From a virus, in the IMG/VR virus record IMGVR_UViG_3300031952_000063, positions 1 to 37,393 of that record: DNA of 37,393 bases; one strand, written 5' to 3'. A program made the position numbers and the translations under genes. The notes under the pieces were generated by a model. The model searched no databases and was not told the origin of the DNA. It worked only from the letters and a program-made list of their open reading frames with translations. This document shows, piece after piece, positions 8,484 through 36,882 of this stretch. Position 1 is the stretch's first letter. Each line of letters begins with the position of its first letter.

Positions 8484-8773
8484 TTTGTAAAAAGCTTTTC
8501 CACTAGCTTATCAAGCTTAAGGTTGATTTGCCTAAAGTTATCATGCATTTCCTGGATTTCCCTTAAGAAGTCAACCTTGAGAACGTATTCCAAGGGGAGC
8601 CGGCTCACTTGATTTTCTAATGAGTTTAAACGATTCTCTTGCTTACTTAACAATTCGTACACTGTTTTAACCCTATCGTTTGCACGTGAAAGTATCTTGT
8701 TTGCCACCCAGCTCCCACCTCCAATTGAGGATATTACCGCCGTTAGGCCGAGAGCAAAATATTCCGGGCCCAT
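8480..8773 (-). CDS. Membrane-anchored coiled-coil protein
   Basis: 97 aa. A hydrophobic N-terminal segment (residues 4-25, ending SIGGGSWVANKIL) is followed by a long heptad-patterned coiled coil (residues 30-95, for example LLSKQENRLNSLENQVSRL). One membrane anchor plus coiled coil next to the terminase gene could be a holin, spanin or lysis-timing protein, but I cannot assign it to a family. It sits between TerL and the AbrB-like gene, with a 4-nt overlap with the latter. Confidence 0.75.
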   Translation of the reverse strand: MGPEYFALGLTAVISSIGGGSWVANKILSRANDRVKTVYELLSKQENRLNSLENQVSRLPLEYVLKVDFLREIQEMHDNFRQINLKLDKLVEKLFTK

Positions 8774-8802
8774 CAGTCAAATACTTTTCTATATTTTACT
8801 AT

Positions 8803-11352
8803 CTAAAAATCAATTTGAAGATTACCTTTACGCATTAATCCTGTGACAAGCCAGACCAATGCATCAACGCAGTCGTCGTGACTGCTTACACCGAAGTTAG
8901 TCAACTCTTCAAACATTGCCGTAAAATTCCGATAACGATTAAAGATGATCTTTCTGTCTTCAAACATACCCATGATGCCACGGAATCTTGCCAGTTTATC
9001 TGCCCTAAAAGCTTTTACGGGATGCCAATTTAAATTGTATAGTCCTTCATTATTTAAGCAAACTCTTTTGAAGTCTGATTCCAAAGAAGCCTGATAGGCT
9101 ACTGCTTCAGACCAAATAGCACACGTTGAATAGGTAGGAAAATACATTCCACCTTCATCCTTACCAATTACAGACCAGTCATTTAAAAGTTCTTTCAACT
9201 CATCTAGTTTCTCTAAGTTACCCATCACACGTAGGCGCCTGTAATCAATAATGTGAATCTGGTCGCCAATGCGACCACCCAATACCATTACCGTGTAATC
9301 GTTCTTTTCTTTGATTCCAGCGGAGAGGTCAACCCCAATACCAAGAGCATCAAATTCAGTTGCTATTTCAGCTTTAACAATAAGTTCCGGCGTCAGCGAC
9401 AATTCATTTTGCCTGACGATCTGGTTCATGTACTGAAAAGAAAAAGCAATAGGTGCTTGCCTTTTCTTTTCCTTCAAGTAATCAAGTGACCACATTTCTG
9501 GCCAATAGGACTGCTCTTCTCCTGTTATAGGATCATTGTTGATTGCAGATAGAACAATCTGACGCCAATTATTTTGCTCATTAAAAGTAGTTGCGTGAAT
9601 ATCGTCATGCCTAAATCTGGTACCTAGACAAATTGCTCGGCCGCCTTCAAACATCGTTGGCGCAATAACTGCGTTCCAGTTATCTTGCATCGTGCGCCTG
9701 ATATCTGGGTTGGAGATATCGGCGCTACTTTTTATGGGGTCATCGATAAGACAATTTAAAACGTTGAACCCATTTGCAATAAAATTATGGCTTTCGTGAT
9801 CTACCTCAAGGTCATAGACTTTGACCTTTCTGTCGCTAAAATTTGTAATTCTGGAAATGGTGACGGGCGCCCAGCTTTGTCCGTTATCTGGTGATGTGCT
9901 ATATGGCACTGCCTGCATAACGTGATTAAATTTTGCAGGGTATTTGTTGTTCTGTTGTGATCTATGTGATGAACACAAAGATTTGTACGCATCATATCGT
10001 TGCTTAACAATTGTTTTTTCTCCTTGGTACCACAGCCCACGCAAGAAAAATTGTCTCGTTCCAAGATTATTGGGCGGAGTTTCTTGAAGTTCCCCACTTC
10101 GCATCCGTGAGAGTATCGTGAATTCCCCTCTCCACTCATCCGGACGGAGTGCAGAAGATTTGCACAAATCCTGGAGCAACACTGAGCCGAGCGATACGTT
10201 GGTTGGAATAACTTGCTGCATTGGAGACAAGCTTTCTCCACTAAGACAACGCGAGCTTTTCCCGCACATTGGTGACTGCAGTGTATTTGTTCCGGATTCT
10301 TCGAAAGACGCTGGGAAAGTCGAGAACCTGTCAGGGAAAAAACTTTTACGCAAACTGGGCAGTGTAGTCTCACTTGAAATGTTATTGCTTTGTTGAAGCA
10401 AGTCGAACAGATACGTTGTGTTTTTTTCTTTTCCGATCCACATGCTAGGCAGTAAGGTATTTTTGTACCCGGGGGATAGCTCGACAAGCTGTTGCCCCGT
10501 ACTAAGATCTCCTGCCCTTTCTTGCCTTCCTTCCGCCGTAATGAAAGGGTGCTCGGCAGTTGCTTGAATACAACCTCCATTGGTTGTTTCAATTTGAATA
10601 ACGCCTTTGGTATCACGTTTTGTAACTGATGCCACTGAGCACCAATCAATAGCATCTGTGCTGTGGTTTCGAACTGCAATCTGATATCGCCCGGGGTTTT
10701 TGTAAATGGAAGCAATTGGTACCTGTCCACGATTTGTGAGTACCATTGTGTCGCCTACAAGACAAAGGTGTGAACGCTTGGACGTAACCGAACCCTTTAG
10801 GCCTGCAGCGCACAAGGTAAATTGTTCGTCGCCTGTGTTTTCAATGCCAGCAAAACGATAATCAATTGACCAGTACTCATTACTGGTTACATTTTTGAGA
10901 AGACGTACAGATGGAAAAACTTCTTGATAACGCTTGCTTTCAATGATTCGTTTAATGGTTGCCGACTTGGAGCGAGCAATGTCAACCGTATAAGACAAAT
11001 ACAAAATCTGCAAAGGCATCTTGGCAGTTGTATGTACGCCAATAGCCCATGCAGTAAGCAAACCTAAAATTGTTGACTTGGCTGAACCCCTGCTGGCAAG
11101 TAGGTCTAGGTTTGGTCCAGCAATCTTGAGTAAACAATCACTGTCTTGATTTGTTACCAGATGTTGATGCCATTCCAGATGATGTTTTGCTGGTTTCTTT
11201 TTGGGATCAATGTACTCACAAAAGAAAGCAAAATCATCCCTTGCTCTAACTAGTGAGTCTTCATCCTTATGCTTGCGTATTTTATGATTGTTAGCGGCTG
11301 CTTGTGCATTACGCCTATATGCAAGATGAAGATTTGAAGCCACGTTAGCCAA
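8803..11352 (-). CDS. terL: Terminase large subunit interrupted by an intein
   Basis: TerL is the ATPase/nuclease motor that packages phage DNA through the portal. The N-extein (residues 1-196) has the Walker A-like LLASRGSAKST (84-94). The C-extein (534-849) begins with Walker B (CLIDDP), then has GLGTRF-like coupling text (ICLGTRFRHDD) and a nuclease domain with GIGVDLSAG and the late acidic SSHDDCVDALVW. Residues 197-533 are an intein inserted immediately before Walker B, so splicing is needed to build the ATPase. The spliced protein would be 512 aa, normal for TerL. The first codon is TTG (11352) with AAAGG upstream; GTG at 11343 is an alternative. Confidence 0.9.
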   Translation of the reverse strand: MANVASNLHLAYRRNAQAAANNHKIRKHKDEDSLVRARDDFAFFCEYIDPKKKPAKHHLEWHQHLVTNQDSDCLLKIAGPNLDLLASRGSAKSTILGLLTAWAIGVHTTAKMPLQILYLSYTVDIARSKSATIKRIIESKRYQEVFPSVRLLKNVTSNEYWSIDYRFAGIENTGDEQFTLCAAGLKGSVTSKRSHLCLVGDTMVLTNRGQVPIASIYKNPGRYQIAVRNHSTDAIDWCSVASVTKRDTKGVIQIETTNGGCIQATAEHPFITAEGRQERAGDLSTGQQLVELSPGYKNTLLPSMWIGKEKNTTYLFDLLQQSNNISSETTLPSLRKSFFPDRFSTFPASFEESGTNTLQSPMCGKSSRCLSGESLSPMQQVIPTNVSLGSVLLQDLCKSSALRPDEWRGEFTILSRMRSGELQETPPNNLGTRQFFLRGLWYQGEKTIVKQRYDAYKSLCSSHRSQQNNKYPAKFNHVMQAVPYSTSPDNGQSWAPVTISRITNFSDRKVKVYDLEVDHESHNFIANGFNVLNCLIDDPIKSSADISNPDIRRTMQDNWNAVIAPTMFEGGRAICLGTRFRHDDIHATTFNEQNNWRQIVLSAINNDPITGEEQSYWPEMWSLDYLKEKKRQAPIAFSFQYMNQIVRQNELSLTPELIVKAEIATEFDALGIGVDLSAGIKEKNDYTVMVLGGRIGDQIHIIDYRRLRVMGNLEKLDELKELLNDWSVIGKDEGGMYFPTYSTCAIWSEAVAYQASLESDFKRVCLNNEGLYNLNWHPVKAFRADKLARFRGIMGMFEDRKIIFNRYRNFTAMFEELTNFGVSSHDDCVDALVWLVTGLMRKGNLQIDF
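9754..10764 (-). mobile_element. Intein in TerL (337 aa), inserted at Walker B
   Basis: It starts at C197 with a block A (CLVGDTMVLTNRGQVPI), has block B with T264-x2-H267 (TAEHPFIT), and ends with block F (VKVYDLEVDHESHNFIANG) and block G (FNVLN, then C534 of the C-extein). Residues C197, N533 and +1 C534 give the class 1 splicing set. The usual penultimate His of block G is Leu here (VLN), a substitution known from some active inteins. The middle (about residues 300-495) looks like a long linker in this frame. In the +1 frame the same DNA encodes an HNH endonuclease. Extein sequence RSHL|CLIDDP reads smoothly across the junction. Confidence 0.9.
9801..10730 (-). CDS. HNH endonuclease in +1 frame, wholly inside the intein
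   Basis: 309-codon frame. Convincing protein begins near residue 90 (about 10460). It has three zinc-ribbon modules (C94xxC97/C108xxC111, C124xxC127/C151-x3-C155, C168xxC171/C185-x3-C189), then an HNH domain: C230xxC233, VHHIDHNR (H254, H255, N259), NLITLCRQCH (C272, C275, H276). HNH enzymes of this type are homing nucleases that spread their host gene. The frame is +1 relative to TerL, which stays open throughout. The true start is unclear: ATG 10730 and 10580 and TTG 10487 are all possible, and none has a good Shine-Dalgarno site. Expression by frameshifting is another option. Confidence 0.8.
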   Translation of the reverse strand: MDRYQLLPFTKTPGDIRLQFETTAQMLLIGAQWHQLQNVIPKALFKLKQPMEVVFKQLPSTLSLRRKEGKKGQEILVRGNSLSSYPPGTKIPYCLACGSEKKKTQRICSTCFNKAITFQVRLHCPVCVKVFSLTGSRLSQRLSKNPEQIHCSHQCAGKARVVLVEKACLQCSKLFQPTYRSAQCCSRICANLLHSVRMSGEGNSRYSHGCEVGNFKKLRPIILERDNFSCVGCGTKEKKQLLSNDMMRTNLCVHHIDHNRTTNTLQNLITLCRQCHIAHHQITDKAGRPSPFPELQILATERSKSMTLR

Positions 11353-11374
11353 CAGCCTTTAATTGCATACTAAC

Positions 11375-11536
11375 TTATTTTTCTTGTTTTCCGTTCTTTT
11401 GATTTTTATATTGCCTTGCTTTATCCAAGGCAACCTTACGTTTCTCCGTATCACTCATGTCAGATCCGTCTTCCTTTTTAGTTTCTGTATGTTTAAAATG
11501 TGCTATTAATTGAAGAGGTGTTTTGGGTTTATTCAT
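11375..11536 (-). CDS. Small charged protein (53 aa)
   Basis: MNKPKTPLQLIAHFKHTETK, then a Lys/Asp/Glu-rich tail ending QKNGKQEK. The start ATG overlaps the upstream stop by one base (TAATG), the mark of a coupled gene. It lies directly before TerL. No domain recognised. Confidence 0.7.
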   Translation of the reverse strand: MNKPKTPLQLIAHFKHTETKKEDGSDMSDTEKRKVALDKARQYKNQKNGKQEK

Positions 11537-34343: not shown

Positions 34344-34582
34344 TTGTTATGCCCTACGTTATCTTCACAGTTGAAGACAATGTTAATTACTGCATCACTG
34401 CAGATAAAGAAACCATGTCATTCCAATTGATTCTTGTAGAATCGGATTCAGATTTATCACACGTGTTTAGCCATCCTTACCAAAGTGGTGCGTTAAATAT
34501 TCTTCGTTGGATCCAAGCTAATGACCATGCCCTCGCCAGTAAAGACCTCGTCATTTCCGATGAAGGACGATTCAGGCACTAA
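34331..34582 (+). CDS. Hypothetical early protein (83 aa)
   Basis: MIFHIVMPYVIFTVEDNVNY, beta-like with MSFQLILVESDSDLSHVF and an acidic or basic end (VISDEGRFRH). ATG 34349 (MPYVIFTVED) is a good alternative given the hairpin over ATG 34331. Its end overlaps DNA polymerase by 23 to 62 nt depending on the polymerase start. No family recognised. Confidence 0.65.
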   Translation: MIFHIVMPYVIFTVEDNVNYCITADKETMSFQLILVESDSDLSHVFSHPYQSGALNILRWIQANDHALASKDLVISDEGRFRH

Positions 34583-36386
34583 GAAATGGTACGTATTTGA
34601 TTTGGAGACCGACGGTCTGTACAATGAAGTTACAACGATTCACTGTCTGGTCTTACATGATCTCAACAGAGACCAGACTTTTACTTATGGGCCTGACAGC
34701 ATTACTGCTGGTCTTGAGCATCTGGCTACCGCTCATGTTCTAATAGGACAGAACATTTTATTTTTTGACATCCCTGTAATACGTAAGCTGTATCCGTTTT
34801 ATACGTTTGCGGCTGCTCGTATTATTGACACACTCATTACAACACGACTCATCTGGCCCAAGGAAAAACTCTATGACATGGACACAGAACAATATACGCA
34901 GGTTCCACCGAAGCTGCGTGGTTCAGCATCACTCAAGGCATGGGGCTATCGTCTATCAGATTACAAGATTGACTTTAAAGATTTCAAAGAGTACAGCGAA
35001 GAAATGTTGGCATACTGCGTCCAGGATGTTAATGTCACTACGCAATTGTTTAAGCACACGCAAAAACAGTCATGCTCTGAGGCGGCGCTCAAACTGGAAC
35101 ATGATTTTGCTTTGGCAATTGAAAAACAAATTAGGTCAGGTTTTCCTTTTGATGTGGATGCATGTCTTGATTTGGTGGATGATCTCAGAACAAAACAGGC
35201 GACGCTCGAAACTTATCTAAAAGAACTATTCCCACCTAAAAAGATTGAGACAGTATTTATTCCTAAGGTAAACAATACAAGTCGTGGTTATGTCAAGGGC
35301 CAGCCGTTTACTAAAGTCATGCATGAAGAATTTAATCCTGGGTCACGTCAACAGATTGTAGATCGACTGCAAACTAAGTACGGGTGGGTGCCTGAGAAGT
35401 CAACAGAGAAAGGCAATCCTATTTTGGATGATGACGTACTGAGTGCTCTTCCATACCCAGAGGCTAAGCCCTTAGCTGAGTACATGCTGATCAAGAAAAG
35501 GCTTGGTCAGATAGCTGATGGTAACAATGCATGGTTGAAGTTAGTCAATGATGAGACCGGATGCATGCACGGTGATGTAGTAACTAACGGATGTATTACT
35601 GGTAGGTGTGCACACCGCAACCCAAACATGGGGCAGGTTCCCGCTGGTTATTCAGAGTACGGTAAAGAATGCCGTGGATTATTTCATGCACCTGATGGCT
35701 GGACCTTGATTGGTGTAGATGCCAAGGCATTGGAGCTGCGTTGTCTTGCTGGTTACCTTGCCCATTGGGATGGCGGTGAGTATGCACGTGTAGTAACAGA
35801 TGAATCAATTGATATTCATACATACAATCAAGAAATGTTTGGTGTGCCTACCAGGGATATAGCAAAGCGTTTGTTGTATGGCTTGTTGTATGGATGTGGT
35901 GCACTCAAGGCAGGAACAATTATTGATCCGAATGAAAAAAATGAATTGATTCTGCGTGAATTAGGAAGTACGGCAATCAATTCATTTATGAAAGGTATAC
36001 CCGCATTGAAAGAACTTAAGAACAGAATTGCAAATAACATTGCAGCTCGTGGTTACCTTATTGGTTTAGATGGTAGACCACTTTTTTGTAGATCTGATTT
36101 TAAAGGATTGAATGTATTACTGCAAGCATCTGGTGCACTCATAATGAAACAAGTTGTTATTGAACTGCATAACAAAATGTACGACCTTGGTTATTTTTAT
36201 GGGCACGATTGGCAGCAAAACGCTATGATCCATGACGAAATTGAAGTATCTTGTTCTTTAGATATGGTAGATACCTTGACAACCATTGCATTAGAATCCT
36301 TTCCCGCATCGCAACAATTTTTTAACTTCCAATGTTCTATTGAGGGTAATGCTAAAGTTGGCCGCACTTGGTACGAGGTACACTAA
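34521..36386 (+). CDS. Family A (T7/Pol I-type) DNA polymerase with proofreading domain
   Basis: Replicates the phage genome. The 3'-5' exonuclease domain shows FDLETDG (D27, E29), LIGQNILFFD and YCVQDVN. The polymerase domain shows motif A at D400 (VDAKALELR), motif B RDIAKRLLYGLLYGCGA (K449, Y453, as in T7), and motif C HDEIE (D572). In motif A the residue normally Ser (DxSxxE) is Lys. At 621 aa it is shorter than T7 polymerase (about 700). ATG 34527 and 34560 are alternative starts. Its last ~90 nt are repeated downstream of the next gene. Helicase and primase are not in the window. Confidence 0.93.
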   Translation: MTMPSPVKTSSFPMKDDSGTKKWYVFDLETDGLYNEVTTIHCLVLHDLNRDQTFTYGPDSITAGLEHLATAHVLIGQNILFFDIPVIRKLYPFYTFAAARIIDTLITTRLIWPKEKLYDMDTEQYTQVPPKLRGSASLKAWGYRLSDYKIDFKDFKEYSEEMLAYCVQDVNVTTQLFKHTQKQSCSEAALKLEHDFALAIEKQIRSGFPFDVDACLDLVDDLRTKQATLETYLKELFPPKKIETVFIPKVNNTSRGYVKGQPFTKVMHEEFNPGSRQQIVDRLQTKYGWVPEKSTEKGNPILDDDVLSALPYPEAKPLAEYMLIKKRLGQIADGNNAWLKLVNDETGCMHGDVVTNGCITGRCAHRNPNMGQVPAGYSEYGKECRGLFHAPDGWTLIGVDAKALELRCLAGYLAHWDGGEYARVVTDESIDIHTYNQEMFGVPTRDIAKRLLYGLLYGCGALKAGTIIDPNEKNELILRELGSTAINSFMKGIPALKELKNRIANNIAARGYLIGLDGRPLFCRSDFKGLNVLLQASGALIMKQVVIELHNKMYDLGYFYGHDWQQNAMIHDEIEVSCSLDMVDTLTTIALESFPASQQFFNFQCSIEGNAKVGRTWYEVH

Positions 36387-36387
36387 T

Positions 36388-36882
36388 ATGACTTATCATA
36401 TTTACTTAAAAGAACTTCCTGAAAAAAAGTATTTAAATCAAGTTTTAGAATATAAAAAAGAAACGGGGTATGTTTATTGGCGTTCAAGTAATAAAATTGT
36501 TAAGTTGTGCACAACAACTAAAGGTGCAAGATATAAAAGAATAATGATTAATAGTGAACACTATGTATTGCATAGGATCATTTATCAAATGCATTATGGT
36601 GATTTATTGTCTAGTGAAGTTATTGATCATATAGACAGAAACAAACAAAATAATAAAATTGAAAACTTAAGAAAAGCTAATGTATTTATTAATAATCAAA
36701 ACCAAGGAGAAAGAAAAAATAACACCTCAGGATACAAAGGTGTTTCATGGTCTAAACAAAGAAACAAATGGAGAGCAACAATAACAATAAATAAAAAGCA
36801 TAAACATCTTGGATTTTTTGCAACCAAAGAAGAAGCTTTCATTTGTTATCAAAAAGCTAAGGCAACGTTTCACAGTGGTTAA
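36388..36882 (+). CDS. HNH-AP2 homing endonuclease
   Basis: 164 aa. The HNH region (residues 60-105) has YVLHRIIYQMHYGD, EVIDHIDRNKQNN and IENLRKANVFIN. An AP2-type DNA-binding domain (115-160) has SGYKGVSWSKQRNKWRAT and KHLGFFATKEEA. Free-standing HNH-AP2 enzymes cut DNA in a related phage and are copied in during repair. Strongly A/T-rich compared with neighbours, a sign of transfer. It begins one base after the polymerase stop and is followed by a displaced second polymerase 3' end. Confidence 0.88.
   Translation: MTYHIYLKELPEKKYLNQVLEYKKETGYVYWRSSNKIVKLCTTTKGARYKRIMINSEHYVLHRIIYQMHYGDLLSSEVIDHIDRNKQNNKIENLRKANVFINNQNQGERKNNTSGYKGVSWSKQRNKWRATITINKKHKHLGFFATKEEAFICYQKAKATFHSG

Follow-up and report, generated by a model that had tools for sequence, protein, structure and literature searches.

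The large terminase (TerL) gene of the viral DNA analysed here (the window: 37,393 nucleotides, IMG/VR record IMGVR_UViG_3300031952_000063) is interrupted by an intein that very probably carries its homing endonuclease gene nested in the +1 reading frame rather than fused as a domain. An earlier note on this DNA had proposed that it serves as linker in one frame and nuclease in another, and on this point the codon-position signal, the constraint tests and the structure models presented below agree. The features are collected in Table 1.

Table 1. Features of the intein-containing TerL locus, in coordinates of the window
Feature	Position	Strand	Details
TerL precursor ORF, intein-interrupted	8803..11352	-	TTG start, 849 aa; PHROG 38 TerL 4.6e-73; Terminase_6C
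N-extein (ATPase half)	10765..11352	-	Ends ...SKRSHL directly before Walker B
Intein	9754..10764	-	337 codons, CLVGDT...NVLN|C, no stop; Cys1, block B TxxH, C-terminal Asn, Cys+1
N-terminal splicing (HINT) segment, intein codons 1-92	10489..10764	-	pLDDT 80-93; Pfam and TIGR matches
Stretch with apparent constraint in both frames, intein codons 40-92	10489..10647	-	Same-amino-acid codon variation 0.09-0.16 vs 0.48-0.66 in exteins
Intein-frame middle, ~codons 102-290	9895..10461	-	Unconstrained, predicted disordered linker; pLDDT ~26-44 over most
C-terminal splicing segment, intein codons 300-337	9754..9867	-	pLDDT 87-94; TIGR01443
Mechanical +1 ORF	9801..10730	-	309 aa
Nested HNH gene, +1 relative to TerL	9801..10649	-	282 aa if TTG of intein codon 39 starts
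HNH gene, shorter form	9801..10487	-	228 aa, alternative start TTG at intein codon 93
SD-like CGGGGC	10494..10499	-	-5.0 kcal/mol, spacing 6 to TTG93; consensus match alone
Three zinc-ribbon-like Cys sets of HNH protein	10164..10451	-	Invariant Cys in alignment; DZR_2 match sub-threshold
HNH catalytic motif RDNFSCVGC...VHHIDHN...NLITLCRQCHIAHH	9891..10058	-	PF01844
Intein plus donor-type flanks, apparent co-conversion tract	9729..11064	-	~-300 to +25 around insertion site

The insertion lies between SHL and CLIDDP, the Walker B site of the window TerL, and the intein-less alleles L010-L017 read SKRSHL^VCIDD at this point of the alignment. The TerL frame had been described as open through the whole intein with the splicing blocks visible, and this is borne out by 337 stop-free codons and by matches to Pfam Intein_splicing (1e-11) and to TIGR01445 and TIGR01443 (both above cut-off). 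Cys1, T69-x-x-H72, Asn337 and Cys+1 are conserved. The AlphaFold model, which like the other structure models was built on alignments free of rows from GenBank records, is confident at residues 1-100 and ~300-337 (pLDDT about 90) and disordered between (about 30), and its fold matches the solved inteins NpuDnaB, MtuRecA and SspDnaB. These sequence features predict that the window intein splices. The efficiency of splicing is uncertain, however, because Leu, Gly or Ser precedes the terminal Asn in place of the penultimate His that is usual in inteins, although not strictly defining; this His is reportedly maintained inconsistently in mycobacteriophage inteins, as Kelley et al. are said to have noted in 2016. 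A group I or group II intron was rejected, since Rfam gave no match at E<=1 over 8700..11500 and the host frame is open. The middle of the intein frame had been read as a linker of about 200 codons, which holds for approximately codons 102-290, where pLDDT is mostly ~26-44, but not for codons 40-92, which look constrained in both frames.

In the +1 frame, the mechanical ORF matches HNH PF01844 (8.4e-5, above cut-off) and the PHROG HNH family (3e-12), and the H, N and C columns of the catalytic motif are invariant in 29 sequences. The AlphaFold model of the HNH protein has a mean pLDDT of 84; a Foldseek search with it against the PDB gave no match below E 0.01, and the weak matches are led by the HNH enzymes ScoMcrA and Cap5, the best being an HNH restriction enzyme at E 0.014. 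We infer that the protein cleaves DNA, and likewise what it would cleave. The HNH domain and three zinc-ribbon-like Cys sets of the proposed second protein are thus present, but the protein does not occupy all of the ~930 nt assigned to it. Since selection on the +1 frame starts only near intein codon 36-40, the mechanical ORF being unselected over its first ~27 codons, the actual gene should run from about 10649 to 9801 (or from 10487 to 9801). The window also holds a free-standing gene with HNH_3 plus AP2 that resembles a homing endonuclease gene (36391..36882, + strand); it stands directly after DNA polymerase A (34521..36386), and its mechanical ORF overlaps the end of the polymerase gene.

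Relatives were obtained with TerL, HNH and intein queries against IMG/VR; a first related-locus search (query P0002) and a scan of genome contigs with the HNH alignment A3 each returned no relatives. The 337-codon intein is present in 70 locus entries, some of them one contig fetched twice, which represent 16 distinct lineages at 97% DNA identity, namely the window copy and 15 others. One is the cultured Synechococcus phage S-EIV1, annotated in its record only as 'putative terminase large subunit'. All 16 lineages share an identical gapless 337-codon layout, with the intein frame stop-free and the HNH in +1, and a second clade with 313-codon inteins has the same layout.

Within intein codons 1-40 and 321-337 it is mostly at TerL position 3 that the lineages differ; within codons 93-300 it is mostly at TerL position 1, equivalent to position 3 of the HNH frame. 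Where two lineages have the same TerL amino acid, the proportion of pairs using different codons drops from 48-66% in the exteins and 40-59% over intein codons 1-39 to only 4-33% over codons 40-312, and is back at 42% beyond codon 313. Purifying selection on the HNH frame is strong: changes that fall on HNH position 3 leave the HNH residue the same far more often than expected, the nonsynonymous ratio being 0.15-0.17 in codons 93-300 and 0.55 in codons 40-92, against 0.85 in the control codons 2-39, while the TerL-frame amino-acid constraint ratio of 1.10 in codons 93-230 is that of an unconstrained sequence. Following the earlier note, stop codons were sought in the intein-frame middle of homologues, and none was present in 16/16 lineages or in 15 more diverse loci. 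The number to be expected was obtained by holding the HNH protein fixed, permuting its synonymous codons and counting intein-frame stops. For the window copy 11.9 stops were expected and none was observed (0/500 permutations); the expectation averaged 11-19 for the 16 lineages, with no stop in any, and was 3-16 for the 15 diverse loci, again with none, while the unused third frame contained approximately the expected number. A frame open by chance is rejected by this permutation with its third-frame control. Taken together, the codon-position, constraint and stop-count results imply active maintenance of both frames, the intein frame as an open one and the HNH frame as a functional one.

It is most likely, judging from the candidate start sites, that the HNH nuclease is made by internal initiation. 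TTG39, which adjoins the onset of +1 constraint, is found in 15/16 lineages and has no Shine-Dalgarno (SD) sequence; in the L005 group it is replaced by TTA and the HNH stop codon is shifted. TTG93 is preceded by an SD-like site (spacing 5-7, -3.1 to -9.4 kcal/mol) in 15/16 lineages, and is replaced by TTA in the L097 type. In the window the SD-like sequence sits within the Gly-Asp/Glu region of the intein that follows block B. Dual coding of codons 40-92 is supported by the AlphaFold model, in which the 54 residues added by the TTG39 start have a mean pLDDT of ~74-90; alternatively, constraint in these codons may reflect an RNA-level signal. In the 313-codon clade codons 79-91 are unconstrained, and in the distant L202 an ATG with an SD sequence comes after a stop, a short distance ahead of the first zinc ribbon. 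We conclude that a later start, of the codon 93 kind, is at least common; the cyanophage clade has probably extended its HNH gene upstream. The L005 copies, which have lost TTG39, and the L097 copies, which have lost TTG93, offer possible natural tests of start choice.

The abrupt onset of +1 constraint at about codon 36-40, where no SD sequence is found, could also be explained by programmed +1 frameshifting, which would yield a fusion of N-extein, intein N-terminal segment and HNH with no internal start, and which would fit +1 being the sole frame relation found. We regard this as unlikely. A slippery sequence is not conserved: depending on lineage, the boundary is preceded by GCT, AAC, CAA or GAC, and the A6 run of some relatives is interrupted in both the window and L006. 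Furthermore, the SD-preceded TTG93 is retained in 15/16 lineages, and the HNH of L202 cannot derive from an earlier shift because of the stop just upstream of its SD-preceded ATG.

Natural deletions bear on how the two functions of the nested arrangement are related. With the intein-frame middle largely deleted, the inteins of L147/L148 (211 codons) and L153-L156 (181-185 codons) have lost most of the HNH, yet their splicing motifs and intein frame persist; in L153/L154 a +1 stop has been gained inside codons 40-92. The intein can therefore be kept without its middle and, to judge from these mini-inteins, splicing and nuclease functions separate cleanly. Among close relatives intein-less TerLs are common and the presence of the intein is scattered. 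Comparison of the window with the intein-less L010 and the intein-bearing S-EIV1 (L192 serving as a proxy donor only) revealed that the window TerL resembles S-EIV1 over a tract reaching from about -300 to +25 relative to the insertion site, and L010 elsewhere. Donor- and recipient-type sites number 42/28 near the insertion against 21/218 far from it (P=5e-18, with boundaries chosen after inspection), and DNA identity to S-EIV1 is 87% in the intein and 80% in the exteins. The S-EIV1-like tract is apparently the footprint expected of homing.

The loss of the HNH from the 211- and 181-185-codon forms, together with the L005 group, which lacks TTG39 and has a displaced HNH stop codon, might instead suggest that the +1 HNH is a dead relic in a vertically inherited intein, its open frame a remnant. 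This is very unlikely given that HNH nonsynonymous changes are held at 0.15-0.17 of expectation over long branches, that the catalytic residues are invariant across the 29 sequences, and that donor-type sequence surrounds the window copy in a gene whose remainder is L010-like.

The nested intein extends well beyond the cyanophage lineages. In the distant TerLs L202-L214, L232 and that of Gordonia phage Clown the HNH also lies in the host +1 frame, and Intein_splicing scores above the Pfam cut-off in 10/10 diverse TerLs tested. The HNH stands in +1 in every full copy, rather than in frame as in a canonical homing endonuclease (HEN) intein, and among the relatives no TerL was found with a member of this HNH group in its +2 frame. 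The layout thus appears to be a general mobile-intein design occurring in many unrelated phages. The deep branches of the HNH tree are poorly resolved. In L232 (3262-5877) the intein with the nested +1 HNH occupies a different TerL site, upstream of Walker A, and the HNH clusters, on long branches, with other lineages; a repeated or independent origin is possible. Several loci contain further elements. In addition to the nested-HNH intein at Walker B, L201, L206 and L208 have an apparent second, in-frame intein at Walker A, its in-frame LAGLIDADG being Pfam-confirmed in L208 only, and the TerL of L211 has a second intein elsewhere, from about codon 564 (IQ|CLTGDT...HN|TRWHEDD), beside its nested-HNH intein. 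In L217 (1033-2223), a distant relative only, and in L218, an HK97 gp10-like gene contains an in-frame HNH with a weak intein match, which is probably the ordinary layout.

The ShiLan domain, described in 2025, is an out-of-frame HNH in phage methylases that lacks splicing ability (PMC11855218). The element in TerL could be of this type, an out-of-frame HNH whose host simply tolerates an extra polypeptide; in both, a zinc-finger HNH lies out of frame within a phage gene that stays open, and the Clown HNH is weakly similar to ShiLan-type HNHs (E 3e-7 to 7e-5). Such a reading is highly improbable, as the splicing signatures are conserved here, the predicted fold agrees with that of solved inteins, and the insertion breaks the Walker B of an essential motor. 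The last alternative, that sequencing or assembly indels (suspected in the earlier note near 10470 and 9870) shifted an ordinary in-frame HNH intein, is supported only by the window being a single contig and has a negligible probability, being excluded by the same +1 relation in 15 other lineages and in very different TerLs, including that of Clown, and by independent metagenomes and a cultured phage that share the identical gapless 337-codon layout.

We return to the intein with a nested nuclease gene. In the mechanism we propose, ribosomes would read TerL through the insertion, and the HINT fold formed from the two ends of the intein would splice itself out and join the TerL halves, the ~190 middle codons serving merely as an unstructured linker. 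Internal initiation on the same mRNA, at TTG39 or at the SD-preceded TTG93, would produce a separate zinc-ribbon HNH nuclease. This nuclease may then cut the Walker B coding sequence in the intein-less TerL of co-infecting phages, and repair after the cut would copy the intein plus some flank. On balance we favour the view that these elements form a widespread, old class of 'frame-nested' phage-terminase inteins, in which HEN and intein share DNA and the HEN is always in the host +1 frame, and that in the cyanophage clade ~52 codons encode parts of two folded proteins, HINT and the N-terminal segment of the HNH.

In this class the nuclease appears to be a separate protein made from shared DNA, while the segment remains in the reading frame of an essential gene. 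Because it is apparently separate, the nuclease can evolve, have its own expression level and be lost without affecting splicing. The locus is also a clean natural case of overlapping genes in which constraint can be measured for each frame, and it raises a testable question about the translation of a gene buried within another. Annotation of the host frame only misses such nucleases, as in the records of S-EIV1 and Clown.

Ordinary inteins consist of a splicing domain fused to an in-frame endonuclease domain. The window intein resembles canonical HEN inteins (LAGLIDADG or HNH) in placing the HEN information between blocks B and F and in its presumed homing life cycle, but where theirs is a fused in-frame domain, its nuclease would be a separate protein from another frame. 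A separate HEN protein is also found in 'fractured genes', split inteins with a free-standing homing endonuclease gene between the halves; there, however, the host gene is split, whereas the window TerL is one continuous ORF. To our knowledge, textbooks describe no mobile intein with its nuclease in another frame, and the literature searched contained no intein with an out-of-frame HEN. A 2025 preprint by Gosselin, Arsenault and Gogarten ('Actinobacteriophage Inteins ... Non-Canonical Architecture') may, to go by its title, cover unusual intein/HEN layouts of actinophages, perhaps including Clown. With this possible overlap, and with ShiLan known, the finding is not categorically new; of the proposed new way to keep a homing nuclease, what stands is its occurrence here within an intein, an out-of-frame HNH in an open phage gene having been published.

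Among mycobacteriophages, TerL is the main intein host according to the portions of PMC5050341 consulted, which describe the TerL1-e inteins at the Walker B site, the site also occupied in the window, and report splicing of a representative. No out-of-frame HEN is reported for TerL1-e in those portions, whereas the window HNH is in +1; they group TerL1-e with class 3 inteins, whereas the window intein is class-1-like in its Cys1. The ShiLan domain resembles the window element in being a zinc-finger HNH encoded in another frame of an insertion through which the host frame stays open, in its disjunct distribution and in a start without obvious signal. It differs in having no splicing domain and in placing its HNH in frame +2 of a methylase, while the window element is predicted to be a true intein in TerL, with its HNH in +1, mini-intein derivatives and an apparent co-conversion tract.
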